A stretch of 64,000 nt of DNA from Omphalotus guepiniiformis (Eukaryota > Basidiomycota > Agaricomycetes > Agaricales > Omphalotaceae). The stretch is taken from NCBI GenBank assembly GCA_028554645.1, contig JAQOOI010000021.1, forward strand, positions 558,001 through 622,000. The letters run 5' to 3'. Below are positions 1 through 42,843 of this stretch, in pieces. Below the pieces are notes generated by a model that was given only the letters and a program-made list of their open reading frames with translations, searched no databases and was not told where the DNA came from. Made by a program: the position numbers and the translations under genes. The stretch's first letter is position 1. Every line of letters begins with the position of its first letter.

Positions 1-1352
1 TCTGTCCCTCTCGCCAAGCACGCCAGAGCTCTCGAGACCCGGATCCAAGTCCCCATACACCTTACCTATCCTCACTATCCTCATCCTCACCCTCCCTCCA
101 TTCATCTTTCTCGTCTCTTCGCCTATGTTTCCTGCACGTCTCGTCAGCTTTATCGGCGGCGCTGCACCAATAATTGCACTCAACCCCAATCTACGCACAT
201 GGGCAGCCCTACTCAGGAGACAAGTCTCGCTTATGGGAGAATACGCCATACCAACTCGGTCTCTCAACGAAGTGCTCCATTCAACCCTCCCATTATCTTC
301 CCTTTCCACCTCGGTAACAGTCCCTCCTGTGATACGAGCGATCGCTTCGCGCGCAGGCATTTCTCTTGGACCAAAGCTCGACCTTGGCGATTTACCTTTC
401 AAGTTAACTTTGATGCGCAAGAGATTCAAATGGGGCATACAACGCTTGATAGACAACAATAACCTCTCTGACGAAGTCTGGAACAGCGAGATGCGAGAAA
501 TAGAGTTGTGGGAGAATGAGAGGTTAGACCCTGTAGTTTCTCCAGCACCGCATTCGGCCGCGAGTATACATCCGATTTCACATAGTAGGACAAGCTCTGG
601 TGTGTCGGCGAGTATAACTACGGGTGTGAGGGTGGCTTCCCCCCCTCCGTTGTCACCACCGCCGTATTCGGAGAATTTAGATGAGGGAGAGGAGAAAGAA
701 AGGGGTGGGCATGCGGATGAAGGAAGTACTCATCGTCCGACCCACCAGCGGGAGAAGAGCACGATGTTTGGTTCGGGGAGCGGAGGGTGGAGTAAGGCTC
801 ACTTGCGTTCGGGGGAGCGAGCAGCTTGGACGAGGGGAAGGGACGGATGGAGTGGAGTTGCTAGCGCAAATTCGGAAGGAGGCGCTACTGTTAGGTTCGC
901 GTGAGCTTGTTTACCTTTTCGCTCTCTCTCTCCTCTCTTTTTTTCGTTTTTCGGTTTTGTTTCGTATGAAATTTGAATCTGGCTAATTCGATTTACATGG
1001 TGACCTAGTAACCTTACCTTTGCACTTGCACCCGGATGGGTCTTTGTTGACACGGAAGATTGGAGAGCTGATTTGGAGGCTTCGTGGGTGCGTGAGCGGG
1101 ACGTGACAGATAGTGAGGGTGAGGATATGAACGACAATGAGCTTGGAAGTGATGAAAGTAAGCTACTTTCGTTGTTTGTGTCATTTATGTATATTGACTA
1201 TCTACTTCTGACGTTCAGATGGTTGGGTATACACGAACGATTCGTGGCTTGAACCTTCGGCTTATGCATACCCTGGAGCAGTGACGAGGAGAAGGAGATG
1301 GGTGAGGAGGATTTGGTATGATCGGAATTCGGAGCATGGTTCTGTGGCCTGA
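1..1352 (+). CDS. Pex23/Pex30-type integral peroxisomal/ER membrane protein with dysferlin domain (3' part, 5' end outside window)
   Basis: The frame is open to the left edge, so only the C-terminal part is seen. Introns at 901-1008 and 1158-1218 join with exact phase and end at the TGA 1350-1352. A hydrophobic segment (LPILTILILTLPPFIFLV) is encoded at about 65-120. It is followed by a central region with PPLSPPPYSE and charged low complexity. The last two exons encode paired Trp-rich blocks: RFANLTFALAPGWVFVDTEDW, then NGWVYTNDSWLEP and RRRRWVRRIW. This is the DysFN/DysFC arrangement of the fungal Pex23/Pex28-32 (Pex24p-like) family, which acts in peroxisome size and number control and ER contact. 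The assignment to the family is firm; the exact paralogue is not. Confidence 0.82.
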
Positions 1353-1439
1353 ATCAAGATCTGACGAGTCGTGTGGCCTCGTGAACGAGGTGTTTGAACT
1401 TTGTTCACTATCCGGGTTTGACACTACAAGGAGGGCAAT

Positions 1440-2884
1440 AATTCACGTAAGCGAAATTACTTGCCATTTGCTTTGAAAAACTATTTATTTAGATTTGTAC
1501 ATTTTCAAAGAAAATTAAAAAGTTTTTATCCGATCGTACGATAGAAATTCTTGTCACCGTTGGGGCGCGAAGCTCTTGTGACCCGCAGACCCATTACTTT
1601 CATGTTACCCGCGTGTAATCCGTCCAATGGTATTGATGATACCCTCGTAGATTGCGGCGGCCCCACCCGGCACGCAAGCCTGTACCATCGACATAGAGAA
1701 ATTCCACCGAACATGCCCAGCTCTACCGCACCATAAGCCTTTCCTAGTCGTCCAAGGGGAAAAGGGCGAATTTTACGTCGACCACTGCGTCCCTTTTGGG
1801 GCAGCCTCGGCCAGCAGCAATGCGGGCATGATAGCAAATGCCACGGTTGACATTTGGCACGCCCAAAACATAGGACCGGTAATGAAATACGAGGATGATT
1901 TCAAAGCCCTACGATATCCCACATCGAACCTGGGTGGTTTTTCTTACGCATACAACAAGGCGGAAATGATGCGGAGGGTCGAGAACCTCAATGTTCCCTG
2001 GCACCCTACGAAGGGTGACAGCGAATTCCTTTTCGAAACGACTTTCATAGGTTTCTCGTGGGACTTACCCAAAAAACTAGTATCACTGCCTGAACCGAAG
2101 CGTGCAAAATACTTGGCACGCACCACGAGTTTCGTTGAGGCATACGAGCGTAACCGATGTACTTTGGAAACTTTGGAAACGCTACACGGCATACTATGCC
2201 ATTGCGCATTCGTTTACGAAGAGGGACGCACCCGCCTACCGTCGATTTCGAACTTCATGGCAACGTTTAAAGGTACTTAGAATCCTCTCGTTGTATGCGT
2301 TGATCTCATTTGCCGCAGGCAGCTACCTTTTGCGACGCTACCCATCTCGACAGGTCATTGACGACGTGAGATGGTGGTGCGGAATGCTTTCCATCCGGGA
2401 TTTCGCTCGTCCCCTCATTTTCAAAGGCCCAGCCCAGGATCTGGGTATCTACGTAGATGCTTCGACAGACTGGGGAATAGGCATCGTAATCGGCCGCCAA
2501 TGGGCAGCATTCAGACTTCACCCGGACTGGAAAGTCCCAGGCCGGGACATTTGCTGGCTCGAAACGCTCGCCATCGAACTCGTTATATACTTTCTAGCCG
2601 ACCTTAATTTCCACGATATCCACCTTCTCATACATTCGGACAACCAGGGCACGATTGGGGCGATGAAGAAACGCCGCAGTCCCAACCATTGGATCAACCT
2701 TTCCATCAGACGTTCATTCGCAGTCCTAAATTCACTCCACATCAGCACGACGCTAGAATACGTTGAATCTGCCAAGAACCCTGCAGACCCCATCTCGCGC
2801 GGGAGTATGGGCCTGCACGGTGACAAACTACTTCGGTCTTTCGACCTGCCGGAGGAACTCCGGGGAGTATTACGATATGTTTAA
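1440..2884 (+). mobile_element. DIRS-like retroelement, left part: RT-RNase H gene, 5'-truncated and decayed
   Basis: From about 1650 one frame encodes reverse-transcriptase blocks: KFHRTCPALPHHKPFLVVQG, DHCVPFGAASASSNAGM and the catalytic YxDD-type KYEDD (about 1886). After a frame change near 2100-2280 the RNase H part follows: YVDASTDWGIG (about 2450), WLETLAIEL and HSDNQGTIGA, ending with SAKNPADPISRG typical of DIRS and Gypsy RNase H. The stop is at 2882-2884. An in-frame stop just before 1650 and the lack of any gag-like ORF show that the 5' part is lost. The frame shift in the RT means this copy is probably not autonomous. The left limit (about 1440) is a guess from where coding similarity fades after the peroxin gene. 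Confidence 0.8.
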
Positions 2885-3039
2885 CGGTTTCTTAACAGTA
2901 CAGCCAACAAAGGTTGGCGTGAGCGTAGGAGATCCGCGCCCTCCTTCGCCTCACTTGCAGCAGCAGCAACTCTCGTCTCGTTTCTTTCTTAATGCATTCA
3001 AGTACTCGGACAAGCAAAAGACTTCTTCAACATCAATTT

Positions 3040-3045
3040 CTCAAC
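3040..3045. repeat. Left target-site duplication (CTCAAC)
   Basis: The six bases lie directly outside the left inverted repeat and are repeated at 13542-13547 outside the right one. The flanking sequences are otherwise unrelated to the element. Confidence 0.85.
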
Positions 3046-3147
3046 TATGCTGTTTAAAAGTGTCAAAAAATAATTTTAGCACGTAATATCTATCAACACC
3101 ATATCTCACTTAGTCTTAGCTGATACAACTCCTTGATCACACAATAG

Positions 3148-3357
3148 CAGATGGTGCTCACAATATTGCAGTTGTTGCTCGTGCTATGGCAGTTGGTGCT
3201 CGCGCTATAACAGATAGTGCTCGCGCTATGGCAATTGGTGCTCGCGCTATGACAGTTGACGCTCACGCTATGGCAGTTGGTGCTCGCGCTATAGCAGAAA
3301 GTGCTCGCGCTATGGCAGGTAGTGCTCGCGCTATAGCAGATGGTACACACATCATTG
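3148..3357 (+). repeat. 21-bp subterminal tandem repeat, about 10 units
   Basis: Units resemble GCAGTTGGTGCTCGCGCTAT with a variable base between units. The GCTCGCGCTAT core is the most constant part. The mirror copy is at about 13230-13439. Clustered short repeats next to element ends commonly serve as transposase binding sites; that role is inferred here. Confidence 0.8.
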
Positions 3358-3388
3358 TATATTGCTTGGGAATAACTTCAGAAAGATG

Positions 3389-3607
3389 ACTATTAAGTGG
3401 TATTCTAGATCAAAGCAAGTATCAAGCAAATGAGTGTGGTCAACTATTAAGATGTGATATTCTAGATCAAAGCAAGTATCAAGCAAATGAGTGTGGTCAA
3501 CTATTAAGATGTGATATTCTAGATCAAAGCAAGTATCAAGCAAATGAGTGTGGTCAACTATTAAGATGTGATATTCTAGATCAAAGCAAGTATCAAGCAA
3601 ATGAGTG
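3389..3607 (+). repeat. 57-bp tandem repeat, about 4 units
   Basis: Each unit contains TTCTAGATCAAAGCAAGTAT and ends AATGAGTGTGGTCAA. Three units are nearly identical and the outermost is shortened. A further degenerate copy, with CTAGATCAAGGCAGAGGCTA, lies just inside the inverted repeat at about 3625-3660. The mirror copy is at about 12980-13198. Confidence 0.82.
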
Positions 3608-3938
3608 GGTTGAGCTGTAAGAGTATCCTAGATCAAGGCAGAGGCTAAAATGAATCAAGTACAAACACTCTATTTTTCCTCCATGGATCAGGTCCAATAC
3701 TAATAGCATGATCCAATTCCATCTCGTCATTGGATTCTTGATCAGTGATATCAATGACTTTAGAGTTGGCTTAAATAATAGTCAGCATTGCCAAGACATT
3801 CAACTTGAATTCATGAGCTTACCTTTAATGCTATCATGGGGTGTAATCATGCTAGCCAAACGAGCTGACTTTCGGACTGAAAATTGAACTGAATCTACAA
3901 TGAAATGTTTAAGTATGATATGCAATTAACTATAGAAG

Positions 3939-5208
3939 TTACGCACCAGTTTCACTGTCAGAGTCAGAGTCGGAAACAATGTGATCTCGTTTGCGCTTCT
4001 GAGATGGCTGATATTCATTATCAGGTTTCTTTGATTCATACTCAGACTCAGACTCCATGGGAGGGTTAATCTCTGCACAAAATAATTCAAAACTCAGAAC
4101 ATGATATAAAAATCACAAAAAAAACTTACCATTCTGACGGTCTTCAGCCATGAGAAGTCCATTATACGCGCGCTTGAAAGTCAATTTATCTTGCTCACAA
4201 TACTTATATATCATAGCCTTCGGGATTGGGTCACGAGAAGCTAGAATCGCAAGGTAATCAGGTGCCGTGAAGTGCAAAAGTGATTTAATAGAAGCATACC
4301 AATATGGATGAATTGTTTACTCGCAGCTCTACCTGAGTTTGATCGCTTCTCATATAAGGTTTGAGCATCCGGAAAATCCTCGATAGAGAGCGTCAACATA
4401 TTGTTTCGGCTCAAGTTACAAGCACCCCAGGGGGCAGACAGCCCCACCGCACCCTTGCCCTTTGCACCATACAGGGCAGACAAGACCGGTAGATGCCTGC
4501 ATAACCACGCTGTAACCTCTTCGTGATCCATATCTAAATCAAACGAGAGACCGTCTGACTTCACGTAAGCAAGCTTGAGACTTTTGTAGTTGCTCAGGCT
4601 CGAAGAGGGTTTCGCAGCAAGCGGACTGTTGAGGATCGCAAGACCAGTATTCTATAATTTAAAAAAGTCAGTACATTCTAACAGACTTGGATGCGAAGAT
4701 CTCTACACTTACTTCTGAGGTTTGTGATCCCCACGGATTGAGCACAACGCCAGCAATCTTTGGAGCATTGCCGGAAGCATCGCGAGATCTAGATTTAGAA
4801 TCCCTGGTTAAAATGAAAGCTTCAGAAATGGGTAGTTATTGCACAAGGGAAGATCACGTACTTCGCAGGTTTCTTCTTTGTTGATAGGCCCTTGTTGGCT
4901 TCCTTCTCAGCCTCATCGAGTTTACTAAGAGCGTCAGGTCGCTTGGCCAAAGACTCTATCAAGACATCTCGCATAGTCTTCTTCTTTGAAGTGACTTTTG
5001 AAGAATTGTACTTGGATGAGGTAGCCTCTGGTGTGGCTCTATCTTCGAGTCGGATTGTCGCATGCTTGTATCCAGGATGTAAGCAATTAAGACACTCATC
5101 CACATCACTGTCTCCATCGAAACCTAGACAATCACAGACTTTTCGAACTTGCGTCCCAGCCTGAGGTACATAGATCACGGATTCACATGGACGTGCTAAG
5201 TCAGGCAT
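3939..5208 (-). CDS. Unknown 344-aa element-encoded protein with Cys cluster, basic and acidic tail
   Basis: Five exons (5208-4862, 4803-4713, 4651-4300, 4240-4130, 4072-3939) join with exact phase and end in TAA, giving 344 aa. All four introns are 57-61 nt with good GT/AG ends. The N-terminal part has the Cys/His cluster CDCLGFDGDSDVDECLNC followed by LHPGYKH, which could bind zinc. A lysine-rich, possibly helical region follows (VTSKKKTMRDVLIESLAKRP). The middle (NPWGSQTSE, LAYVKSDGLSFDLDMDHEEV, GLSAPWGACNLSRNN) is not recognised. The tail has QKRKRDH (candidate nuclear signal) and DSDSDSETGA. The gene is intact and lies 331 bp inside the left inverted repeat, so it is a candidate accessory gene of the element. 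An additional 5' exon cannot be excluded. Confidence 0.7.
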
Positions 5209-5249
5209 AGCGCGTTCCTGGCCTATTGGTGTCAAAGAGCTTGACAAAT

Positions 5250-5541
5250 CCCTGCCTATGATGTAGATTTGAGAACGACTCGGAAGAGAAATACGAATTG
5301 GAACAAAAAGATGAATATAAGAGAACGAGTTGGAAGAGAGAAACCCTGACCGTGAAACGTGAACACTGGTTGACTTCCCAATCAGGCGTGAAGTTACGTA
5401 TGAAGCTGGACACTGGACAACAATAAATCGACATTTACCTCTTACTCTGACCTTTGCAGGATGAATACAGTGGGAATACAGAAATACGTATGCACTGTAA
5501 TGAGAGTACTCGCAGTAATAGACTCATAGACCCATAGTAGC
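5250..5541. other. Stretch inside the element with no recognised gene
   Basis: No reading frame in this stretch resembles a known family. It lies upstream of the 344-aa gene and may include its promoter. Confidence 0.4.
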
Positions 5542-6079
5542 TCAGCCTGTTCCCATTAACTGTCGAAACCAGCTGAGCTTTGCAGCATTGACTCGAGAAT
5601 TATCATGCGGTTGAGTAGGAACGCTGCACGCAAACAAAGAATATACCAGCAATCCTTCGAGCCATGTTGAGCTTGACCAAGGATGCCAGTGTACTATTCT
5701 CTCACATCTATAAACAATGATTCTCAATTTAGGAGAATGCAACACACTAATAAAACATACCTCGGACAGAGTAGCATACCTTGTTCTCCCATTGCACCTC
5801 TCTGTATAGATATAATGAGTACCGGATGTCGATAGGCGTCCAGGTGCTATTGAATTCAGACTGTTTGATACGACGGGTACATGTACAACATGCGGCATCC
5901 TTGCTGTGACAGGTTCTGCGCAACATCAGATTCAATAGCAAAGAGAGAACAAAGAGAGACAACACTGGAATAGCTGCAAGAGCGCAGAGGCCAAGGAAGA
6001 CACTCGAGGACCGAAAGAGACATGCATCATGGAAGTTATGTGGAAAAGTGCGTCTCGTTCCGACACGTATGCACTGCAA
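5542..6079 (-). pseudogene. Possible remnant of a small membrane-protein gene
   Basis: A minus-strand frame has one strong hydrophobic helix (SVFLGLCALAAIPVLSLFVL, then SLLLNLML). After it comes a Cys-rich and polar stretch (KDAACCTCTRR, TPIDIRYSLYLYREVQWENK). A GTATGC donor follows WENK, but the best downstream acceptor leads straight into a stop, so no full gene can be drawn. The family is not recognised. It may be cargo of the element like its neighbours. Confidence 0.25.
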
Positions 6080-6269
6080 GCAACGTAACCATGGCGTCTC
6101 ACCAATAACTACCGACGAGTCCAGCGTAGTCTCAAGATCTCACTCGCTGAAAATTTCGACGCTCAAGAATATTGTGGAGATCACACCAACCAGATGATTA
6201 TCAAGATGCTTTGGTACGCTTCAATTCGCAATAAAAACCATGCAAGCAGTTACTAGTCGTGATAAGAGT

Positions 6270-6470
6270 AAAGTTACGATGAACGTGATATACGGTTGCA
6301 GAGACGTATGCGGACAAGAGGAAAAGCGCGGTGAAGAGGTAAGGGGGGTCCATGGAGTATGAGGGGCGAGCAAAGTTACGATGGACGTGATATACGGTTG
6401 CAGAGACGTATGCGGACGAGAAAAAGCGCGGTGAAGAGGTAAGGGGGGTCCAAGGAGCATGAGGGGCGCA
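6270..6470. repeat. 102-bp tandem duplication
   Basis: Two adjacent copies (6270-6371 and 6372-6470) both start AAAGTTACGATG and contain TATACGGTTGCAGAGACGTA and GCGCGGTGAAGAGGTAAGG. They differ by a few substitutions and a 2-3 nt gap. They lie just beyond the 3' end of the 14-3-3 remnant. Confidence 0.85.
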
Positions 6471-6482
6471 GGGAAATAATGC

Positions 6483-7350
6483 AGAGACGATATAAAGATG
6501 GCGACCAAGATAGTAGAACAATACACTCGTCATTTGGTGCCTCAGCTGCGTCCTCCTTTTCTGAGGGTTTGTCGGCTGTATATGGGCATCAACCTTCGAA
6601 GCTAGACAGCAACGTTACGATCACTTACCAGAGCTGCATGTCAGAGGTCCAGAGCGTGAGGTTATCCCGGAGCAGTTGCATGATGATAGTCGAGTCTTTG
6701 TAGCTCTCCTCTGAGGAAGTGTCGAGCTCGGCAATGGTGTCGTCGAATGCAAGATGGCATGCGCGGTCAGGGCTGTTGAGGATTTCGTAGTAGAAGACGG
6801 AGAAGTTCGGGGCAAGATCCAGACGAATGGGATGTGTAGGAGGGAGTTCAGGGACGGCAACGTCAGAGGCAGCCTTGTAGGCTTCTAATGACTTGTGAGC
6901 TTTCTGCTTGTCACCAGTGGCAAACTCGGCGAGATAACCGTGGTAAGTCTCCATCCTGTTATGAAGATGTCAGCGTTGGGATAAACACTAAAATAGAGGG
7001 TGCCTAACATCTTGTGATAGAAGACCTTCGACTCGCCTAAGGCGGCAGAAGGAATGAGGTGCTTGTCAAGGATTTCGAGGACATCCTCGCAGACCTTGGC
7101 GAGCTCGGACTCGATCTTGCAGCCTTTGATCATCGAAACCTGGGCTTCATTGCACAACTCTCCACGAAGCAGATCGTGCACCGATGACATTCTTGTAGGC
7201 GACAGAAAGATTTGCTCCTCAACAGTGAGTTCTTGGACAGACGAAGCCACTCGTTTGCACGCGGGGTTTATCATGTGAGCTAAACAACTCACCTTCATAA
7301 TGCTCAGCTAGCTTGACGAGGTAAACAGAGTCTTCACGGGATTCAGCCAT
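6483..7350 (-). pseudogene. Captured 14-3-3 gene copy with small deletions
   Basis: The ATG at 7350 begins ESREDSVYLVKLAEHYE. The copy then shows [115 protein letters not shown] and [16 protein letters not shown]. These are 14-3-3 signatures in the normal order, with introns retained, so the copy came from genomic DNA rather than mRNA. Damage includes a frame shift and a deletion in the ARRASWR helix region, loss of about 11 residues before NEAQ, loss of KQA after CHLA, and an acidic tail that no longer joins in phase. The phosphopeptide-binding Arg region is hit, so normal function is unlikely. Confidence 0.85.
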
Positions 7351-7739
7351 CTACATGAAAGCAGTCGTAAGTTTTCAAAACGCTCATGGAAAAGCATAAC
7401 ACGTTGACTCACAGTAGTTGATGGGTGCTTCTACAACGAGAAACACCCTTGAAATTACGGAAGACAACGATGAGGCCAAACGGAACGTAGTAAAACAAGG
7501 AAGGAAGGAGGGATGGTAGGGAAACGTAGACAGAAACACACTTATGAGATTTCTCACACGTTTTTCTAGTTTCTCGCCAGTATCGCCCTGTCGCCCTGGT
7601 GTCGCCACAGGTCGCCACTCATATACGTATACATAGACGACATATTTCGCAAGCCGCACGCCTTATGTAAATCCGATTCCCACCTGTATGTCTCCTCCCT
7701 CCCTTATCTGCATACCCTCTCGGCTGACCTATCAGGATT
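7351..7739. other. Stretch inside the element with no recognised gene
   Basis: This is the upstream flank of the 14-3-3 copy. It holds the first copy (about 7650-7685) of a short direct repeat with CAAGCCGCACGCCTTATGTA that recurs near 8416. Confidence 0.4.
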
Positions 7740-8800
7740 AAACCCTACCTCGTGAAACGCAGGATGCTATAAGGAACTTTTTCGGTGAAGGACATCTCGT
7801 TGGTGAGTTAGAAGTTCCTTTCTTGTGGTTTTTTCCGTCTCTTCGTTGCTTGGTGCTGAGTTTTGGTATTGGTTTGAACCACAAAACTGTCACTAACGCG
7901 CCAACCCACTTTTCAGGTCAAAGTGTTCAAACTTACCGCGTGGGAGGAGGAGAGGATAGAATGGGCTTTGGATGGCGTCGGTGGTGCTGCCAAAGACGGT
8001 GAATGGTGGCGCCTACATCCTCGTCGTCGAATAAGAATGGACGTACGCTGCACGCATTCGAACCCGCTGCTTCTGCATCATGTCCAGACCGTGAAGTTGT
8101 GCGCGAGGTGACGGAGGATGGTGTAGTTGAGATTGAGGGTCGTAGCTTAGTCGTATTTCCTGAGGGGAGGTTGATCCTGGGCCAACTGCTGGGAGGTTAG
8201 TGTATTCCTGAATGTTGTATTGCAAGAAGCGCTGACCTCTTTGATGGTGCGTTCCTCTCTAGCAGGTAAACAGCGTGACTCGTATGTCCCTGCTCCTATT
8301 CCTTCTCTCACTCATCCTAACCGCTTTCTTTCCCCGTTCTAGACGAAATGGCCCGTATCTCTTGATTCCCGTATCTATTGGGAGGCCTACGGAGGTCGTC
8401 AAATATATTATATGTACAAGCCGCACGCCTTATGTAAATACGATTCCCACCTGCGTGTAACTTCTTTTCTTCCGCAAACAAGACCCAGAAGTGGCGTATC
8501 TAGCTGACCTGAAACCAGGTGAGCAAGTTCAAAGCAACTAATATACACAACGAACTCACCACTTTACATTCAGTTGTGTCTCCTCTTGTCTCATACTCGC
8601 ACGATCTCATTCCATAGAAAGACGACAGTCGTATAGTCCTCCACCCATAACCGCATTCTTAAGATTGGGTACTAGGTAAGGTCGATGTCTCTCCACGTAC
8701 CCTTGCTCATCTCTTCCTAGTCTGGGCCTCACCTCCATTACCCTCTTTCCTCCGTCTCCTACGATCTCGTCTCATTCGGCAGTATCGTCGATGGGACCTG
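7740..8800 (+). pseudogene. Decayed plus-strand gene fragment(s) of unknown family
   Basis: Coding-like pieces on the plus strand are separated by plausible GT/AG introns. One is an open stretch around 8003-8195 (PDREVVREVTEDGVVEIEGR, then SLVVFPEGRLILGQLLGG). Another is at about 8345-8400 (KWPVSLDSRIYWEAYGGR). They do not join into one uninterrupted frame and I do not recognise a family. A direct repeat joins about 7650-7685 to about 8416-8452, so this part has been duplicated and rearranged. Confidence 0.35.
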
Positions 8801-8916
8801 GATCAAACGACATAGATCCCATGCGAGGGAGGAGTTGGTGAGGGCTAGCGAGGAATGGAAGATGGTTCACTGCAAGGACGGTGTAGATGGTCATCTTATG
8901 ACGATAAACGACGCGA

Positions 8917-9420
8917 CGCCTAATGGAGAATCGAACACGAAATACCGGGAATTACATGGACACCAACGTCATCACCTCACTTCGCCTATGCTCTCGCACC
9001 GTTCTGCATGGCACGCTCTCACTCCACGAGCTCTGCATCCTACAGGCAACTCTCGTTTCGTTAGGTCTCGGCGGTGTAGGTCGAACCACAAACGAATGGT
9101 GGGCTTGGGAGTTGATTGGGTTAGCAGGGAATTTGTAAGTCCTCCTTCACTTCAAGTGATTCATCAATCACTCAATATCATGTCAGACTCGGGCCAACGG
9201 CTCTTACATCTCAATCTGTAATGCTCGTATCTTGTTCCACGATATTTGAAGCACCATTTGGGAGTAGCTACGAATGTTTCGGTGAGTCAACGCACCTACA
9301 CTCTTTCTCCCTTCGGCTTACCCAACCATTTGCAGCGTTGGTAACTTACTCGGTAAACGTCGACCGTGTCGACCGTGTCGGGCTGGAATTCAGGCACCTA
9401 TCGTCATTGTTAGTAGCAGT
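8917..9420 (+). pseudogene. Fragment of a MATE-family multidrug/metabolite efflux transporter gene
   Basis: The plus-strand pieces SLGLGGVGRTTNEWWAWELI and GLAGNL (to about 9135), LGPTALTSQSVMLVSCSTI (about 9187-9240), FEAPFGSS and VGNLLGK (about 9340) appear in that order. They are separated by intron-like gaps. They correspond to the EWWAFE, LSP.SL..QSV and SVRVGN.LG regions of fungal MATE antiporters. Only this middle portion is present and the frame breaks downstream, so it is a broken cargo fragment. Identification rests on recalled family motifs. Confidence 0.6.
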
Positions 9421-9619
9421 ACATAGAACTTTTTTTACCTCCCACGTACTACTGGTACTGAATGAATATAACTGACCTTGAACATATCACAAACAAGTAA
9501 TAGGCAACCCATCTGGCAGAGAGCGCAAACAATAGTATATTATTTCCTACCCATTCTTTGTTACGCGTACTACTAGATCCTCAGACCATCAAACAACGAA
9601 GGACCGTATGAGCTCGAGG

Positions 9620-11666
9620 CTACTTTGCGATTACAGCCTGCATATGAAGGAGAATATCTAACCCTCGAGCCCACAGCTCAGCACGAGGTCGCCAAATACC
9701 ATCTGGGAGATCGACACGAAGTTCTTTTCCTGCTCGCTTCCCTGAACGAATAAGCTCGTAAGGGGGATATACACCATTTTCCCATTCCACGGGCAAGATA
9801 CCGTATCCTGAAGGAAGAATGTCTTCGTTGGTAGCCATCGCAATTGCATCTACAAATACTTTCTCGAGTTCCGGGCAGTCTTTGAAGGGACTTCGATGTG
9901 AAGGGGTTTTGACAGCTTCAATGAACTGGTTGTCGTATCCTGTGGGTAAGTCGTCTTCCACTTCCGAATCACTTGAATCATCCTCGTCATCAAGACGATG
10001 GCCCGGGAGATCATCAACGTCTTCATCAGGCAAATACCCAGCACCGGTATGGTTGGAAGGATGAACTTCAGGGCTGCCAAGAACACCATATCTCCGCTGG
10101 ATTTCTTGCGGGTCAAGGCCTTCGCAATCGTCGGGAATGCACATCCCCTCGTTGAGCTTCCCTAATAGCCTCATTTCCTAAAGAGATGTTCAATACAAAA
10201 TTGCGAGTTTTAAAAGAAATAAAATACACACTTCGGGGCTCTTATCATGTCCTTCTCCAGAGATAGGGTGTGCATTCCATTCCAACACAAACTCTTGACA
10301 ATCTTCGTTTATCATGCCCAGAAAGAGTTGATGTAAGAGCCATAGGTGATGAGGATTTGACCGATCTAGGCCATGAAGTGACTCGAGACGGAAAAAAAAA
10401 AAGGCTCTCCATCGACGAACAAATTGAGTGCCCGTCTCCACCCATATACGTTCAATTCGAGTGTTACGCGTTGACCTACGTTGAGTAGTAAAGATTAATA
10501 TGTTGTACTGAATTGGACAGCTTCAACTTACGGTCCCCAAATGAACGAACCTCTATTTACCCCCTTCCGTGCTATCATGTAGAGCGCAGCAAGTTTGTTC
10601 TCTTTTCCTCGATCCCCTCGTAGTCTTGATGGTTCACCACATTTCTCTATTGCCTCAAGAAGTAGTTCAAATACAGTTGAGGCCTTGTTATTGACACTAG
10701 CACACATGGCGGTAATCTGAAAGACGAAACAATTAGTCAAACATGTTTCTGCGCCATTCAGAAATGCACTCACAAAGCGATCAAAACCATCTATGAATCC
10801 GTGAATTACAATACCCCACAGAATCAATTTGTGATGTCCGTCCACATGCCACAGAGCGTTTGGACGCTTGACACCATATCGACGACGACGTATATTCTTC
10901 CGGCTCCTCAGCATTGTTCCTACTGCATCAACTCGTCTCACTGAACTGTAGACACGGTGGCGCTGGATTTTGAGCTTGTGGATATTCCGAAGGCGCCCTG
11001 TCAAGTATCGGACACCAGACCCTATCTTGGTTCGACGATATAATCTGACAAGAGCATCTAGTTCAGTGTTCGAAATAGAAGAGTACTTGTAGTTGACTTT
11101 CGACTCTTTCAGCCGAGCTTTGAGAGTGTTTCGACATACTTTGATTGACGATGCAATGGTTTTGAGCCTAAAGTTGTACTTCGGTGAAGCAAATCTCTTC
11201 ATGAACCCAACATGGACTTCCTTCCGAGGCCGGCCTCTTCTGCCACTACGTGTAACTGTTACTGGATTCTCGAAGTAGATATTGGATTCATCCCTGTAAA
11301 ATCTCTGTGTCAACATGAAAATCCAACATGCCTCACAACACACCTTTGTCTCGCAGTGTACTGTGCTTCATACAAGGCTTTTATAATCTCTCCAAAGACT
11401 TTGGCCACCTCCAAAATCCACTCTTGCGGAACATGTTCATCCTCTGCACATTCCTCAAGGGCCTCAAGCAACGGAAGTTCTTCAACAATAGTTTCCAACT
11501 GGATCTGCAGGCGCAGTGGATCTGCTTCCTGAGACAAAAGACGAGAAGCACTTTGGTAAAGTGCTTTTAGCTTTGCATGCACTTCATAGACATTCGGAGA
11601 CCAACTCTGTTCCTCATAGTGTGATGATAGTGGGAATGTAGGCAGAGAAGGGAATCTGGCTGTCAT
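9620..11666 (-). CDS. rve-type (DDE) integrase/transposase of the nested element, intact, 609 aa
   Basis: Five exons (11666-11344, 11293-10774, 10716-10532, 10475-10232, 10177-9620) join with exact phase into 610 codons including the stop; introns are 50-57 nt. The N-terminal part is helical (RLQIQLETIVEELPLLEALE). A basic region follows (SGRRGRPRKEVHVGFMKRF, then a helix-turn-helix-like part TIASSIKVCRNTLKARLKES). The catalytic core has LWHVDGHHKLILWGIVIHGF (first Asp), RLRGDRGKENKLAA (second Asp) and NTRIERIWVETGTQFVRRWR (Glu), so the DDE triad is present. The C-terminal part has NPHHLWLLHQLF and an acidic linker (DDEDDSSDSEVEDDLP). This family is common in Agaricomycete genomes as integrase core domain protein. 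It should cut and join the element ends. Confidence 0.9.
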
Positions 11667-11802
11667 CTGCCAAGTACTGAGTTGACAGTCAAGGTCGTGT
11701 GTTTTGGTTGTTGACACAAAGTAAAAAGATGTTTGCCGGCTGATAGCTTCTTTCTCTTTCAACTCAACATCTCTGATACCTCTCATTTCATACACTATCA
11801 TT
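11667..11802. promoter_or_regulatory. Divergent promoter between integrase and BTB genes
   Basis: Only 136 bp separates the two start codons on opposite strands, so both genes must share this control region. No clear TATA box is visible. The arrangement suggests co-expression, which is an inference. Confidence 0.5.
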
Positions 11803-12972
11803 ATGAGTACTACTGGATTCGATACAGTGGATATCCCTTCTGTGAATAGCTCTGGCTCAAGTACTGTAGTGAACACGCCTGCCACCTCCGTGGATGGATC
11901 TAGTGTTGTTGAGGTGGCCAATCTACTTCAACCTTCTACTGTGATCTCTCGACAACACGAGAAGTACTTTTTCCCAGATGGTAACATTGCCTTTGAGGTG
12001 AGTTTCATTCCTGCATAGCCGCAGACATCTTTAGAGATTTTCTCCCAGTGTGGTGGTTCCGTCTACAATGTACACAAGTCACTGCTCACTCGGTTCCCGG
12101 TCATGGCCGACATGTTCGCATTTGGTGACATTCAGCCTGCTAGCACTGTTTTGGAGGGCTCCATCACCAATCCCATTAAGCTTCAAGGTGTTCGACCTGA
12201 AGACTTTGAAGCATTATTGATGTACATATATGACTTGTACGTGTTTGCATTATGATCTATTTTGAACTGTGATTTATCTAAAGGCATATTTTTGTTTTAG
12301 AGAGATGCATCTTGATTGTCATATTCCTTCAGTGGAGACACTCATCTCGTTTCTCAGGATCTGTGATATGTACCAATACACACCTGGATTTGAGTATGCT
12401 GTCCGAAGGATCACACACTCCTACAGCATTGGATTTTGTCAGAAACTGGTCCTTGGATTGTCTTATAAGCAGTTAGACTGGGTATCTTCTGCATTGAAGG
12501 CATTGTTCTCAACAGGAAAGCTTCAGCTATCCACAGAACTAGCAGGTAAGAATATTTTCACCAAATTTATTTGATCTCACAATCAGTTTCAGAATCTATT
12601 CAGAAAACCTCGCATATGATGGTTCTCCATCTAGGCAGCAGATTATTGGAACAGACTCTGCAAGAGCTGCTTGCAACCCCTCCAAGGCCAACACCAAGGA
12701 ATTGGTCGGTGAATGGTTGTGAGAATCATCACTCATGCCTTGAATCAATCAAATCCTCCTGGCGTCATGTGCGAACTAGGGCTCTTAGCAAGCTTAACCA
12801 ACCTGGTGGTTTCTCATTGGCAGATCTGGAAACAGTGTTGGAAAATACAGCATTCTCCCGTATGAATCCAGAGTGTCGAGCTTGTTTTACTGATGATATT
12901 GGTGCAAGGGCAAGGTCTTTCTATGATCAGATCATCACTGTAATTGCAAAGCGCTTGCTTGACACTGTATAG
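11803..12972 (+). CDS. BTB/POZ-domain protein of the nested element
   Basis: ATG at 11803, stop TAG at 12970-12972, seven bases before the right inverted repeat. The start is Ser/Thr-rich. The BTB fold follows with EKYFFPDGNIAFE, CGGSVYNVHKSLLTRFPVMA, PIKLQGVRPEDFEALLMYIY and then helices HIPSVETLISFLRICDMYQY. Introns near 12240-12299 and 12547-12587 join in phase. The first intron (between 11980 and 12045) is ambiguous: either a very short 27-nt intron, or a 56-nt intron that removes part of the NIAFE strand. The C-terminal part (NGCENHHSCLESIKSSWRHV, FSRMNPECRACFTDDIGARA) is not recognised. BTB proteins of this type are a large, expanded family in mushrooms. The intact frame beside the integrase suggests that the element carries it as a regular component. 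Confidence 0.8.
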
Positions 12973-12979
12973 TTGACCA

Positions 12980-13541
12980 CACTCATTTGCTTGATACTTG
13001 CTTTGATCTAGAATATCACATCTTAATAGTTGACCACACTCATTTGCTTGATACTTGCTTTGATCTAGAATATCACATCTTAATAGTTGACCACACTCAT
13101 TTGCTTGATACTTGCTTTGATCTAGAATATCACATCTTAATAGTTGACCACACTCATTTGCTTGATACTTGCTTTGATCTAGAATACCACTTAATAGTCA
13201 TCTTTCTGAAGTTATTCCCAAGCAATATACAATGATGTGTGTACCATCTGCTATAGCGCGAGCACTACCTGCCATAGCGCGAGCACTTTCTGCTATAGCG
13301 CGAGCACCAACTGCCATAGCGTGAGCGTCAACTGTCATAGCGCGAGCACCAATTGCCATAGCGCGAGCACTATCTGTTATAGCGCGAGCACCAACTGCCA
13401 TAGCACGAGCAACAACTGCAATATTGTGAGCACCATCTGCTATTGTGTGATCAAGGAGTTGTATCAGCTAAGACTAAGTGAGATATGGTGTTGATAGATA
13501 TTACGTGCTAAAATTATTTTTTGACACTTTTAAACAGCATA
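12980..13541 (-). repeat. Right terminal inverted repeat (562 bp)
   Basis: This is the reverse complement of 3046-3607, including both tandem-repeat blocks in mirror order. Confidence 0.9.
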
Positions 13542-13547
13542 CTCAAC
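13542..13547. repeat. Right target-site duplication (CTCAAC)
   Basis: It is identical to 3040-3045. Deleting 3046-13547 gives one uninterrupted recombinase reading frame. Confidence 0.85.
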
Positions 13548-15098
13548 ATTCACTCGCAGCAATCTCTTCTTCTACCATTCAACAGATTCCCGCTCAGCTT
13601 CAACCTCTAGACCAGCACCGGGCCACGAGAAAACCACGTAAGGGCTCCGAGCTCCAAGATTCGACTTTGCGACCCACAGTTCGAGCACATTATCGACTGC
13701 AAGATTGGCAAACCCCATTCTCGATTCGGCAGGCGGACAAACTCTCTCGTCGCTGGCCACCTGGCATCCCGGACCTGGCATCCTCAGCTATCATAGGATC
13801 GACTGTCAATACTACAAAAACTTGCTACGCCGCGGGGCTACTTCGTTTTAATCAATTTTGCGATAAATTCAACATATCAGAAGAGGACCGCATGCCGGCG
13901 GACAAGACTCTCGTAGCGGCGTTCATAGGATACCACAAGGGCTCAGTCTCGGGAAAGACGGTGTCAAACTGGTTATCGGGGCTGAAAGCCTTCCACGACA
14001 TAAAAGGCGCACCTTGGTGTGGAGGCGAGCGTTGGGTTCAGATGGCGCGTACCACGGCAAACAGGGAGGGCTCACATCACAAGCGTGCTCTGCGGGCCCC
14101 GGTATCTCCTGAACACTTGATCACTCTCAAAAAAGCTCTCGACCTGCGAACCCCACGCCACGCCGCCATCTGGGCAATAGCCGTCTGCACGTTCTACGGT
14201 TGTCGTCGCCTGGGCGAAACAACAATACCAGCCCAGAGCAAATTCGATCCAAAGTTCCATGTCACGTTTGCCACATCGTTTGTCACCTCCTTATAAGAGA
14301 TCTAGCTACACACTAACTATCGTTACAGCTTTTCTTTCTCGCAGCGCACGGGCGGAGCCACAGGCGTCAGTTTCAGGATCCCGTGGACGAAAACCACACG
14401 AGAACAGGGAGCGACTGTAGTTCTAACGGCCAGACCACACGACCCGGACGACATATGTCCAGTAGTCGCGCTTCGAAACCACCTATCCGCCAACGCTTCA
14501 GTACCAGACACGTTTCCCCTTTTCTCATATGTCAACGACGAAGGACTACCCCAATATCTTTCCAAGACAGAATTCCTTTCGTCCTGCTACGGGATCTGGA
14601 AAGCGGCAGGCATGTACCATGTTCTCGGGCATAGCTTCCGCATAGGCGGCGCGGTACAACTTCTCCTCGCAGGTGTCCCTCCGGAGGTGGTCGCAGCCAC
14701 GGGAGGTTGGACTTCGCTCGCTTTCCTGCTCTATTGGCGTAGGGTGGAGGAGATCCTTCCCATGGCAACATCGAAGGCCTACCAACGGCAAAACATAGAG
14801 AGAATCGCGGAGGAATTGGACCGATTCAGAGCTTCGCAGAATATTCCCAGGGATCTGGTGAATTTAGCCACTTCAGGGCTAGAGGATGGTTTCACGGACC
14901 TTTAGACAGTGTTACGGACGCGTTGGCCCATGTACATACATACAGATCAGAAATCAGATTCCAATTTGCTCAAATACCTAACCAACCTGCGAGAGTACTG
15001 TCAGTAACTACCAATTCACGCGCACTTCGCAACGCTCGGGTGGGTATCCAGTCCACGAATTTCTTTCGGCCCTGTCTGTTGGAGCTTTGCTCAGTTTG

Positions 15099-16612
15099 GG
15101 GTGTTCCAGGCCCTCTAGAGACTCTTCTTCACCTGGATCCCATTAGCTCAGTCCTCGGCCCCGCTGCGATCGAATGCCGCATGCCTTTCCCCCTCGTGTC
15201 CTCCTCCTCGAACCTGGACGCGTCGAGGTCACGTGATCGGCATCTCGGCATCTCGGCAGCCCGGGCCGGGCCTCAGGCAGACCCACCTACTCGGATGAAG
15301 CATTGACCCCCGTCTCGGAATAAGCATTGACCCACTTGCATGAAGCATCACACGCCGTACAGCTGTCCACTCTGGTAAATATAGTAAGCACCTTCCTTTC
15401 TACCAGAGATGGAGACTGGAATATTCCGCCCGAAATATTCCACCCTCACGACCCTTTCTCGGACACTTAGGAACCCATCTTATTCCGAGATAAGCAGCGT
15501 AGCGTCTTATCAGAGGATAAGATTGTGACGAGGTGGTGACCGACGGTGACCAGATTCATAACGTGACAGAATCTGGACACGTCGTTTGCTTCCGCTCCTC
15601 ATCACCAGCCTCGTCGTCCCTAGCTTTTTTCGTGTCGCCCACCCGCCTCCCCTTTCAGCAATGGGTGTTCCAGGCCCTCTAGAGACTCTTCTTCACCTGG
15701 ATCCCATTAGCTCAGTCCTCGGCCCCGCTGCGATCGAATGCCGCATGCCTTTCCCCCTCGTGTCCTCCTCCTCGAACCTGGACGCGTCGAGGTCACGTGA
15801 TCGGCATCTCGGCATCTCGGCAGCCCGGGCCGGGCCTCAGGCAGACCCACCTACTCGGATGAAGCATTGACCCCCGTCTCGGAATAAGCATTGACCCACT
15901 TGCATGAAGCATCACACGCCGTACAGCTGTCCACTCTGGTAAATATAGTAAGCACCTTCCTTTCTACCAGAGATGGAGACTGGAATATTCCGCCCGAAAT
16001 ATTCCACCCTCACGACCCTTTCTCGGACACTTAGGAACCCATCTTATTCCGAGATAAGCAGCGTAGCGTCTTATCAGAGGATAAGATTGTGACGAGGTGG
16101 TGACCGACGGTGACCAGATTCATAACGTGACAGAATCTGGACACGTCGTTTGCTTCCGCTCCTCATCACCAGCCTCGTCGTCCCTAGCTTTTTTCGTGTC
16201 GCCCACCCGCCTCCCCTTTCAGCAATGGGTGTTCCAGGCCCTCTAGAGACTCTTCTTCACCTGGATCCCATTAGCTCAGTCCTCGGCCCCGCTGCGATCG
16301 AATGCCGCATGCCTTTCCCCCTCGTGTCCTCCTCCTCGAACCTGGACGCGTCGAGGTCACGTGATCGGCATCTCGGCATCTCGGCAGCCCGGGCCGGGCC
16401 TCAGGCAGACCCACCTACTCGGATGAAGCATTGACCCCCGTCTCGGAATAAGCATTGACCCACTTGCATGAAGCATCACACGCCGTACAGCTGTCCACTC
16501 TGGTAAATATAGTAAGCACCTTCCTTTCTACCAGAGATGGAGACTGGAATATTCCGCCCGAAATATTCCACCCTCACGACCCTTTCTCGGACACTTAGGA
16601 ACCCATCTTATT
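15099..16612 (+). repeat. 564-bp tandem array, 2.7 copies, at the 3' end of the DIRS element
   Basis: Copies start at 15099, 15663 and 16227 with GGGTGTTCCAGGCCCTCTAG and look identical. The last copy is 386 bp and stops at 16612. The array can be written B-A-B-A-B with B of 386 bp and A of 178 bp. The unit contains small palindromes (CTCTGGTA paired with TACCAGAG; GGAATATTCC next to AAATATTCC; TCTTATTCC paired with GGATAAGA). DIRS/PAT elements end in split direct repeats (B1-A2-B2), so this may be the element terminus. The A1 partner expected on the left is not found, probably because of the 5' truncation. Confidence 0.8.
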
Positions 16613-16840
16613 GGCAACTTTGCCGTTTTCTCCCGTGACATTCATTAAAAATGTCGGCTGGGAAACTAAATGGGCAATCAACGGGCAATCAACGGTAGTC
16701 TGGGTTGCCCGTTGATTGCCCAGTGATTGCCCGGTAGTTGCCCGGTGATTGCCCGGTGATTGCCCATTTAGTTTCCCGGCCGACATTTTGAATAAATGTC
16801 ACAGGAAAGAAATGATGGTTTGCCGCCGGCAAACCTCAAG
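16613..16840. mobile_element. Foldback MITE-like element
   Basis: The left arm (about 16636-16690: TGACATTCATTAAAAATGTC, GGCTGGGAAACTAAATGGGC) pairs with the right arm (about 16760-16803: TTTAGTTTCCCGGCCGACAT, AATAAATGTCA). The centre holds repeated GATTGCCCGGT units. Outer bases GGCAA and TTTGCCG recur in inverted form to about 16840. It starts exactly where the 564-bp array stops. No transposase is present. The target duplication was not identified. Confidence 0.65.
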
Positions 16841-17160
16841 TACGGCCACTAAAATTGATCACACAAAACCCTTTATTTCACACGCAACAAAGCTTTATTT
16901 GTACAAGTCAGATGTAAAGATCCAAACAAATATTATTTCCAAGCAAATAGCGGCAAGTTTCCCATGCGGGAAATATTGCCCTGTTTGTAGTGTGAGCAAT
17001 GTACATCGATATTGTGTGAAGGCGTTTGTCGGATGTGCAAATGAGCGTGGGAAAACATCCCAAATCTCAAATTATGCGTACCAATTTTGCCTTACCCCTT
17101 GTTACAATTGTTTCGTTCGTCACTCTCACTTACTACGAAAGGAATGCTACTAAAGGTGTA
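16841..17160. other. No gene recognised
   Basis: AT-rich stretch between the MITE and the chimeric fragment. An open frame exists at 17026-17286, but it has no recognisable family features. Confidence 0.4.
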
Positions 17161-17590
17161 GAGCAGTTGTGTCAAGGGATAGCAGCTGTGCTCATTCTAT
17201 CGTCTGTTGAGTTACGTTTCGATTGCTCGAAGTACGCATCATCGTGTTATCAGAATCATATACTTGAATCTCTGACCTCCTTCTAGAATCTGTATACAGT
17301 TCATGCACGCTCCTTTCACCATCGCACAATCAAAGTAAATGTTGGAATAGCATACATCCTCAATGCTATAGTGTGTGTCGGTCTGGGCTTCACCTGAGTC
17401 CCCCTGGTATCGAACTCGAGTCCAATTATATCCGTTCCGCCTGGCGTTTTCGGAAGAGCACGATGCGCGATGTTTGGCTCGGGGAGTGCAACTGCGCTTG
17501 GGCGAGCGGGCGGCTTGGACAAGGGGAAGGGATGGATAGTGTGGAGTTGCTAGTGCAAGTGCGGAAGGTCGTCTCTCGCTTTCTCTGATC
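17160..17590 (+). pseudogene. Chimeric fragment: DUF6533-gene piece joined to peroxin-gene piece
   Basis: From 17160 to about 17443 the sequence parallels about 19155-19440 of the DUF6533 gene (GGAATAGCATA; GTGTGTCGGTCTGGGCTTCAC). From about 17450 to 17575 it parallels about 756-870 of the peroxin gene (AGAGCACGATG; GGCTTGGAC followed by GGGGAAGGGA). Neither part keeps an open frame. Two genes some 18 kb apart in this window have contributed adjoining pieces, so this is a rearranged relic. Confidence 0.72.
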
Positions 17591-17699
17591 TCCTCCGCCA
17601 GTAAGGTGCTACTTAGTTCCGAGTCGTTCGAATCGTTCAGGCGCATTGACTCCTATCAAGATAGCCACTCTCCCAATCAAGAGCTACTGCATTGCATTG

Positions 17700-18580
17700 C
17701 ATTGTCAGTGACCTCATGGGACCACGTCAGGATCAGGACTGAGTACTGTGTGGTGGGGGGATGGGCAACTTGATCTTGTCCCAGTGAGCACCTAACGAAA
17801 TATACCCTGTAACTCCAGGCCACTCGCTATCTTGCTCTTGTTCGTAACCTTGATTGTCTCATTCTTGGAGAGTATACGTAGTGGTATGAGTTGGTCGGAA
17901 CTCAAGCTCAAGTTTCACTGAGCTCATGCTGCTTATAACGCGTAAACAGTTCGAAGCATGCACCCACAATTCAAGCTTTGTATGCCATGCCATACTTATC
18001 ATAGTATGATACGACTGTGCGCTCAGCTGCTCAGCGCTTACACTTTGATGATGATGTTCGGGAAGTTCAAACGCCGGCAAGTTCGTTCTCTCTGTTTCTT
18101 GGTCCCATCCCAACACTAGGATTTTGCCTCCACTTCGAGGTATATGCGCTCGTTCCAGCTTTGTTCATTATTCTGTTCTGAGTAATGACCGCCCGGAATC
18201 ATACTCGGGCTGGCAGGCTATACCGAGCGCCATACAGATAGGCATCCTATCCGCTCCCAATTCGGCACCTTGTTCAATTTAGGATTCAAGTTGGCATTCT
18301 CGGGACTGATCAAAGGTCAAATCATGATGAACCCTCCTTCTCGAAGGTTGATTGGTTGATTGGTTCATACTACTGGGGATGCGCATACGAAGCTCTGAAT
18401 AGGACAGGACTGTTTAAATACTCGAAGCAAATCGGACTCGCGCTGAGCGCTGAAGTCTGCTACAACGTATTCCTCTCAGGCTCGTGCGCCTAGTCCAAGG
18501 TTCGATGGCACTTTCCTCTCAAGATGTCGCAAAAAGCTGATACTAAGTGTCCCTCAGGCTCTTGTGCACCTCGTCCAAGG
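17700..18580. other. Intergenic region with a duplicated exon-1 remnant
   Basis: No complete gene is seen. At about 18475-18545 there is a degenerate copy of the start of the downstream gene: CGTGCGCCTAGTCCAAGGTT then an ATG and CTCTCAAGATGTCGC. It parallels 18557-18620 and breaks quickly with a stop. Confidence 0.55.
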
Positions 18581-18584
18581 TTCG

Positions 18585-20057
18585 ATGACCCTTCCCGCTC
18601 AAGATATAGCAGAAGCGTCCCAGGTTGTTAATCGTAGCTACGGTGCGTGCCGGCCAATTCCAGTGAGAGCTGAACTTTACCTTTTGTCTCGTAGTCGCCG
18701 CCCTTGCATTTCTTGCCTACGATATCCTCATCACCCTGGACGATGAGGTATACTTCCCCAGTTGCGAATCTCGCGAGCATCGGAAACGTACACTGATTTC
18801 ATGTGGACGCAGATTGATCTCGTATGGAAGTAGGCTTTTTTGTGTGCTGCTGATCATCTTGACCTAGTCCTGACGACGATTTACTGCGTGACTATAACAG
18901 TAGATCATGGTCATTCATGAAAATCCACTACCTTTTACGCTCGCTACGTCCCCTTGCTCGTCCAAATGTCAGTTCCTGTCTTAACATAAATATACGCGTA
19001 TTAATCCAGCCCTTCACCTAGACCCCTTTTGCTGGTTGGTTCAGAACTGAGCCCACACTTCCATTTCACTAGACACGCCTGTTACATCTGGCAAGTTCGT
19101 CCACTTTCTCTTTCTATGAATCTTGGGATTGGGAACGGTACTTAAAGCGTTTTGGAGCAGGTGTACCAAGGGATAACGACTGTACTCATTCTATCATCTG
19201 TCGATTACATTTTGGTTGCTCGAAGTAACGCCGTCATCATCGTCGTATCATCTTCAAACCCTGACTTTCTTCGAATGCACAGTATATGCATTCTACTTTC
19301 ACCACCGCGCGGTTAAAATCATCGTTGGAATAGCATATGTTCTTAATATCACTCTGATGTGTGTCGGTTTGGGTTTCACATTCCCTGGTATCGAATTCGA
19401 TTCCAATTGTGTCGTCATATCCGTCCCCTCTGGTGTTTTCATCTCCGGGTGCGTCTCCGAGTCACTAATCCAAGTCATCCCGAAACTGGAAGTACTTACC
19501 CTCAGGCTAACGGTCTGTATAGCGGAGCCTACGTCATCTTTCAAACCCTCCTTTTCGCCCTCACCCTCTACCGTTTCATCCTATCCGTTCGAGCCGGGTG
19601 GGGCCATATTCCAATCATCAGGCTGCTCATGAAGGACGGGACATGGGCTTTCTTCGTTCTATTCAGTGAGCTTCGTCTACCTTGACGAACTTACCCTTTT
19701 CTTATCCGATCTGTTGTTCATGTTCACAGTACAGATGGTTTCGTGGCAGGCTTCTTTGTACGGTCTGAAGAATAAGACCTATTCCGGGGCAATTTTTGGG
19801 TTCATGTTCATTTCTCTCCTATCACTTTCAATCAACTCAATATACTTTCGTATTAGATGGATTTTGTCTGCCTCGTCTGTCTGCGTAATCAATAATTCTC
19901 CATTCAATGTCATACTATCACTAACAACTACTCCTACTATTTACAGGGTTACCGCATTTTCCTCAATATCAGTTCAATCGCTGCATCTAACGCCGCAACG
20001 AACGCACCGACTCGCTCGCCTATACGTTTCAATAGCCATACATATGATGAATGCTAA
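18585..20057 (+). CDS. DUF6533-type multi-pass membrane protein
   Basis: The ATG at 18585 gives MTLPAQDIAEASQVVNRSY, then VAALAFLAYDILITLDDE after an intron (18643-18694). Further exons encode IDLVW, SWSFMKIHYLLRSLRPL, VGSELSPHFHFTRHACYIWQ, VYQGITTVLILSSVDYILVA and AFYFHHRAVKIIVGIAYVLN. They continue with VGLGFTFPGIEFDSNCVV, AYVIFQTLLFALTLYRFILS, VRAGWGHIPIIRLLMKDGTW and a last exon GYRIFLNISSIA ending in TAA at 20055-20057. The domain order and motifs match the Agaricomycete DUF6533 family of roughly 300-aa seven-helix proteins of unknown role. One splice (about 18966-19010) and one donor (about 19457) are weak, so the model is approximate and a defect there is possible. Confidence 0.72.
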
Positions 20058-37060: not shown

Positions 37061-37126
37061 CGCACGTCCAAGTTTGTTCAATGGCCAGGCGAGACGAGTG
37101 TATCCTCACAATATCCATCGGAATGA

Positions 37127-38678: not shown

Positions 38679-38963
38679 TTCCGTACGTTTGAATATGATC
38701 GAATCTCTTGTAAGGTATAGTTATGTTTCAGAGTCAAGCTAGGGATCACTGACTAACCAGTATGCCCACTACAGAAGCACGAAAAAATGACAATGACTCA
38801 GATCTAATGAATGATGATTCACTAACTAGCACTATGTTACATTCGTCGCCTCTCAACTGACTATCATCGTCATATGGGATGGACGGTCACAACAGAAGTC
38901 TTCAGTTCACCGAGTTCAACATTACAGTCAAGGAGATCATCCAAGCCGTAGCAGCTTTATTAT

Positions 38964-39510: not shown

Positions 39511-39529
39511 CAAACAGGAGAAGATAACC

Positions 39530-42566: not shown

Positions 42567-42843
42567 TTTCGTACGTTCAAATATCGAATACTCGGGCTCT
42601 TGTATGATAGAAAGATATAGTTGTGGTTTAGATGAAGTTCAGAGTCAAGCCAAGGTTCGCTGACTAATCAGCAATCGACAGCAATAAATGAACGAGATTT
42701 GATATTTTACTAGCGCTAGTAACATTCGTCGTCTCTCAACCGACTATCATTTTCATGTGTAGGCTAGACGGGTCACAACAGAAGGCTTCAGTTCACCGAG
42801 TTCAACATCATAAAGAGCATCCAAGCGCGTAGCAGCTTCAACT

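Follow-up and report, generated by a model that had tools for sequence, protein, structure and literature searches.

A probable IS3EU/GingerRoot-lineage DNA transposon with captured host DNA in the agaric Omphalotus guepiniiformis

Within 64,000 nucleotides (nt) of Omphalotus guepiniiformis contig JAQOOI010000021.1 (positions 558,001-622,000, assembly GCA_028554645.1; hereafter the window) lies an element of 10,496 bp at 3046-13541 that encodes a transposase, a BTB/POZ-domain protein and an orphan protein (gene3), and that holds host-like DNA between gene3 and the transposase gene (Table 1). Its terminal inverted repeats (TIRs) end in TATGCTG..CAGCATA and are identical at 562/562 positions. 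An earlier reading of the window (the preliminary description) had reported that the paired positions of the repeats sum to 16587, as they do (3046 + 13541 = 16587), and that CTCAAC stands on both sides, as reading the six bases outside each end confirmed. The intact DDE integrase of 609 amino acids (aa) and the BTB gene noted there also yielded open models. The third gene was found to be open as well, with a modeled length of 407 aa instead of the 344 aa first given. The left TIR contains two tandem arrays, of 21-bp units (3147-3344) and of 57-bp units (3389-3607), and our guess is that both could be binding sites.

Table 1. Features of the element and its flanks, in window coordinates; labels such as C62, here and in the text, denote places in the host assembly.
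Feature	Position	Strand	Description
Target-site duplication, left	3040..3045	.	CTCAAC
Left terminal inverted repeat	3046..3607	+	562 bp, starts TATGCTG
gene3 (orphan gene model)	3645..5208	-	407 aa, 7 exons, Cys-containing N-terminus
Captured stretch 1	5773..7489	-	77-83% identical to C62:458-460 kb; 14-3-3 gene with introns and sequence beyond
Host-shared stretch 2	7714..8402	.	80% identical to C8:32.4-33.1 kb and C6:83.4-84.1 kb
Host-shared stretch 3	8461..9530	+	Three blocks, 67-78% identical to C69:234.8-236.7 kb, internal deletion
Transposase/integrase model	9620..11666	-	609 aa, 5 exons; Pfam rva_4 (PF24764); D259, D316, E351
Transposase exons	11666-11344, 11293-10774, 10716-10532, 10475-10232, 10177-9620	-	Model
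BTB/POZ-domain gene model	11803..12972	+	337 aa, 4 exons, divergent from transposase
Right terminal inverted repeat	12980..13541	-	Exact reverse complement of left TIR; ends CAGCATA
Target-site duplication, right	13542..13547	.	CTCAAC

The gene models are predictions whose splice sites were picked to keep reading frames open; for the BTB gene, four splice choices were tried, of which two were open and one was kept. One homologue aligns across 99% of the transposase model, and rva_4 homologues were found in many Agaricomycetes in the protein database. The transposase scored 178 bits against rva_4 and 34.5 bits against rve, with no other Pfam family at E <= 1, and matched the NCBIfam models of IS481 (E 5.6e-10) and IS3 (E 9.9e-7), in both cases with a score below the curated cut-off. 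A profile built from 56 of 107 homologues, selected by length and spread (hhalign used 53), gave E values of 7e-13 against one IS481 protein and 6.3e-12 against one IS3 protein, compared to 0.019 against one Gypsy integrase of the host genome. Neither an H2C2/HHCC match nor a CxxC motif was found in the transposase by Pfam scan and residue check. The predicted structure of a homologue with 52% identity, not of the window enzyme itself, has a mean pLDDT (per-residue model confidence) of 84.8 and a catalytic fold of the retroviral-integrase/TnsB type. The BTB model scored 22.2 bits against PF00651 (cut-off 20.5), and gene3 matched no Pfam family above its cut-off; the predicted structure of a single gene3 exon (mean pLDDT 53.9) was not used.

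The host assembly was searched with the 562-bp repeat, and the match counts of that search are lower bounds. Alongside many partial matches, a second complete copy (family A), whose absence would have spoken against the preliminary description, was found at C76:446557-457106 (10,550 bp). An alignment of 10,553 columns sets it apart from the window copy by two substitutions, 3 nt and a single 57-bp unit; blastn, which placed the gaps differently, gave 3 mismatches and 60 gapped columns. Both this near identity and the full identity of the TIRs agree with the preliminary description, which had judged the copy to be young. Together with 12 further elements, the two full copies make up 14 elements for which both ends were located. 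The termini TATGCT..AGCATA are present in all 11 elements read whole and at both ends of the remaining three. Direct target duplications, read from the flanks wherever both ends were located, flank 14/14 elements, including two that later insertions have interrupted, namely the C19 element and the C76 copy of family B; the one-ended matches C31:118894 and C35:189368, which have the same flank, were excluded from the count. The duplication measures 6 bp in 11 elements and 7 bp in three, so that the uniform 6-bp length expected from the preliminary description held for the former only. Among 200,000 random pairs of points, 85 showed a match of 6 or 7 bp.

On C76, the family A copy is inserted within the end of a copy of a sister family (family B), and this site provides its own empty counterparts. 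The motif GTGGGTT is single in the uninterrupted family B copies on C18 and C69 and double at the filled C76 site (83 vs 76 bases); since it occurs once in the empty sites and twice in the filled one, and since the lengths fit, the 7-bp duplication is proven there. In the wider region (C76:436318-460919), three related transposons are clustered: the family B copy, the family A copy that interrupts its end, and, immediately past these, a short derivative.

Family B comprises three copies (C69:129321-139637, C18:1301632-1311948 and C76:436318-446556, continued at 457107-457189), in which the genes follow the same order as in family A: BTB, transposase (divergent from BTB) and gene3. The repeats of the two families are 91% alike over 742 columns, and the encoded proteins share 68% (transposase), 62% (BTB) and 51% (gene3) aa identity. 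Homologues of gene3 were found in family B and on C16. Nine of the both-ended elements are short derivatives, eight of them whole (2.2-2.6 kb) and one split on C19, which retain remnants of gene3 and BTB and have no transposase match. Four derivatives are 100% identical across 2556 bp at four sites, so the group has moved very recently. A pair of ends at C19:670761-686497 was considered as a 15.7-kb giant element and rejected, as it is a 2.2-kb derivative split by an insertion of ~13.5 kb; its duplication is included among the 14. The C19 insertion has a Gypsy-type integrase zinc-finger match at 680350, and a run of ~8 bp from the element recurs on its two sides.

The preliminary description had called the element cargo-carrying, which is borne out by host-like DNA between gene3 and the transposase gene at 5773-9530, although that DNA itself, with a broken 14-3-3 gene among it, had been overlooked. 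In stretch 1, the 14-3-3 domain is divided over two open reading frames (ORFs), and element and host align at 83/102 and 107/116 codons in two exons. A PGAP1 domain is encoded by a host exon that starts ~10 bp outside this stretch, which probably includes the first exon of that PGAP1-domain neighbor. Two ORFs of stretch 2 matched no Pfam family. For stretch 3, a host ORF that the element lacks contains a MatE match, at 14 bits and below the cut-off; we take the host gene to be probably a MATE-type transporter. In family B, the same interval is filled with other pieces, which match C62:1126.4-1127.7 kb (79-90%), C45/C9 (92%), C61 (95%), C65 (70%), C17 (two pieces 0.7 kb apart, 86-91%) and C75 (85%). 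The donor loci number five or six, according to whether the C45/C9 piece is a small element in its own right. Judging by position, a ubiquitin-hydrolase match falls within the C61 piece and a ribosomal L5e match within the one from C62. Between families A and B, the middle intervals gave no alignment at E <= 1e-5. As introns and intergenic DNA are included, capture would have occurred by copying from DNA. The synonymous divergence (dS) between host and element is 0.15 and 0.49 for the 14-3-3 exons, well below the (saturated) value of ~1.6 between the transposases of families A and B, which suggests that capture postdates the split of the two families.

We consider it very probable that the element belongs to the IS3EU/GingerRoot lineage and is a young cut-and-paste DNA transposon, apparently autonomous, that carries captured host DNA. 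As described in the source consulted, IS3EU and GingerRoot are one lineage, in Repbase since 2013, whose members end in TA..TA, produce duplications that usually measure 6 bp and encode a DDE enzyme that is related to those of bacterial IS3/IS481 and has no HHCC zinc finger (PMC10045372). The element shares the termini, mostly 6-bp duplications, an IS3/IS481-type DDE core and the lack of HHCC, and differs by its BTB gene, gene3, 562-bp TIRs with tandem arrays and host mosaic. Additional genes have precedents in this lineage. In IS3EU elements of rust fungi and Tuber, a TET/JBP gene is located between the transposase and an alpha-kinase gene, and those of the rusts share 6-bp duplications and a TAYG start with the element (PMC12730594); gene uptake by IS3EU is thus on record. 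Pfam scans of eight ORFs of the element and the three gene models revealed neither TET/JBP nor alpha-kinase domains. Styx of Zymoseptoria is IS3EU-related, ~7.9 kb long and equipped with four genes, some of them co-opted; like the element, it has 6-bp duplications, several genes and recent activity, but its repeats measure 36 bp and a host mosaic is not mentioned in the part of its description consulted (PMC10853768). Elements of the IS3EU type have already been counted in mushroom genomes (PMC12411881, PMC8955403). Pack-TYPE transposons also contain host coding DNA within a DNA transposon, but are described as nonautonomous and from plants, whereas the element is fungal and keeps an open 609-aa transposase model (PMC8903248). 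The literature searched (subscription papers and Repbase lay outside the search) yielded no description of either this element or a host-locus mosaic in IS3EU. The gene set is unusual, and the cargo mosaic appears to be new within a superfamily that is already known.

Several observations weigh against this assignment or against parts of it. Membership in IS3EU was judged by published marks and the enzyme profile, and the enzyme comparison involved a single IS481, a single IS3 and a single Gypsy sequence. Foldseek places TnsB chains above retroviral integrases and VIA-align does the reverse, so the fold assigns no family. The 7-bp duplications of three of the 14 elements depart from the usual length, and the TET-carrying elements of rusts end in TAYGG..CCRTA (PMC12730594), compared to TATGC..GCATA here, so that the fifth base differs. 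A search of the protein database yielded 2999 candidates for gene3 and 2941 for BTB, none of which was a homologue at E <= 0.001 at the sensitivity of that search, and therefore only the host genome ties them to IS3EU. Within that genome, matches to the BTB protein were confined to families A and B with their derivatives and did not extend to the surroundings of other rva_4 loci. A genome search with PF00651 returned 10 places, none near an rva_4 locus; it also missed the BTB genes of families A and B, so diverged BTB partners may exist elsewhere. Comparison of the two families gave dN 0.205, dS 1.58 and dN/dS ~0.13 for the transposase and dN 0.423, dS 2.6 and dN/dS ~0.16 for gene3 (dN, nonsynonymous divergence), which would be signs of purifying selection on both, to be read with caution because dS is saturated; for BTB, with dN 0.298, dN/dS was not computable. 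Identity to the host loci is only 67-83%, and capture may therefore be old, or may have occurred in another species with subsequent transfer. The mechanism of capture, lastly, is one that we infer.

Helitrons are rolling-circle elements without inverted repeats or target duplications. The main rival explanation is that one or more Helitrons, or other elements, landed between gene3 and the transposase gene and brought the host pieces with them, in which case the transposon itself would not be the capturer. Gene-fragment capture by Helitrons is published from another agaric, Pleurotus (PMC4289320), and family B (C69:131700-138900) contains a 0.5-kb piece shared with C45/C9 that is nested within the C62-derived piece, where ~3 bp of the host sequence occur twice, which looks like the landing of a small element; this piece is perhaps a small separate element. 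The borders of the host-like stretches in the window (5230-5800 and 9360-9670), however, match only the two element copies and the C69 donor, with no multi-copy Helitron ends, in a search that skipped very common words and was not aimed at hairpin/CTRR ends and so is no proof against a Helitron. Moreover, insertions that brought different pieces would have had to hit the same interval in both sister families. On balance, we regard this explanation as unlikely and favor capture by the IS3EU-type transposon itself.

Less likely still is the proposal of the preliminary description that the element represents an undescribed class of its own among large integrase elements. Its BTB and orphan genes are absent from the IS3EU descriptions consulted and lack a protein-database homologue at the sensitivity noted above, and repeats of 562 bp are long. 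Yet the very marks given for IS3EU/GingerRoot (PMC10045372), a lineage that the preliminary description had not considered, are TA..TA termini, duplications usually of 6 bp and a DDE enzyme that resembles IS481/IS3 and lacks HHCC; moreover, fungal IS3EU elements with extra genes are published, with TET/JBP and alpha-kinase genes (PMC12730594) or in the four-gene form of Styx (PMC10853768), and homologous rva_4 enzymes occur in many Agaricomycetes; the claim of a separate class is therefore not supported. Where that description set the element apart from Polinton, Ginger and KDZ, its ends, duplication length, enzyme and Pfam scans agree. Ginger1/Ginger2 elements, with TGTNR ends, 4-5-bp duplications and an H2C2 zinc finger (PMC2836005), were rejected on account of the TATGC ends, the 6-7-bp duplications and the lack of an H2C2 match. 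KDZ (Kyakuja-Dileera-Zisupton) elements, which have a KDZ transposase and 7-8-bp duplications, were rejected because the enzyme matches rva_4/rve only and duplications are mostly 6 bp. That the element is a Polinton/Maverick remnant stripped of its polymerase, ATPase, protease and capsid genes is scarcely credible, despite its integrase-type enzyme, long inverted repeats and 6-bp duplications, given that Pfam scans of the eight ORFs and three models found none of the Polinton genes (polymerase B, ATPase, protease, capsid), that the profile of the enzyme lies close to IS481/IS3 but not to a Gypsy integrase, and that a sister family has the same three-gene core, remnants of whose BTB and gene3 persist in the 2.2-2.6-kb derivatives.

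Under the IS3EU/GingerRoot assignment, the transposase would pair both ends and excise the element, which would then be joined to target DNA with a 6-7-bp stagger; repair of the staggered joints would yield the 6-7-bp duplication. Deletion derivatives of 2.2-2.6 kb would probably be mobilized in trans by this or the sister transposase. The origin of the cargo is less sure. For Pack-type capture, a usual proposal is that breaks are repaired with other chromosome sites as templates, and internal breaks or gaps in the element could likewise be repaired by copying unrelated chromosome sites, through which host DNA would enter, with inserts being tolerated between gene3 and the transposase gene. 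Copying from DNA to DNA is proposed because introns and neighboring sequence came along. As BTB and gene3 are conserved in the sister family, we guess that their products help in transposition or target choice.

The window copy is itself inserted in older retroelement-like sequence, which the preliminary description had not noticed: window 1651-2884 and 13478-14905 appear to be the two parts of one retroelement split by the element. ORFs on the right side are tyrosine-recombinase-like (Phage_integrase, E 0.0025; SAM-like, E 0.0044, both below the Pfam cut-off). On the left flank, where Pfam gave nothing useful, we presume from motifs a reverse transcriptase/RNase H region, and the label DIRS-like is presumptive in the same way. 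An undisturbed host counterpart of the window insertion site was not found in the assembly, where relatives are only 71-82% identical and do not align across the site. An Rfam scan of window 1-20000 gave no match at gathering scores. Farther along, a 564-bp unit is repeated in tandem at 15099-16612 (~2.7 copies, 100% identical) and is a recent duplication, and two adjoining direct repeats of ~1.1 and ~1.3 kb at 37116-43385 (76% and 82% identity) represent either a gene pair that was duplicated or a retroelement.

The best-known examples of DNA transposons that capture genes are the Pack-TYPE elements of plants and the Helitrons. In the present case, a fungal element that is apparently autonomous and was very recently mobile differs from its sister family in the host mosaic that fills the same interval, and the presence of donor loci, sister copies and an empty site in one assembly offers a way to approach the uptake of genes by DNA transposons, as well as the roles of BTB and orphan companions of integrase transposons. 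We tentatively suggest, as a possibility that goes well beyond the assignment itself, that agarics harbor a distinct three-gene clade of IS3EU-type elements that captures host DNA and keeps its transposase, in which cargo may turn over repeatedly within a fixed interval and the BTB and orphan proteins may work in transposition or capture.

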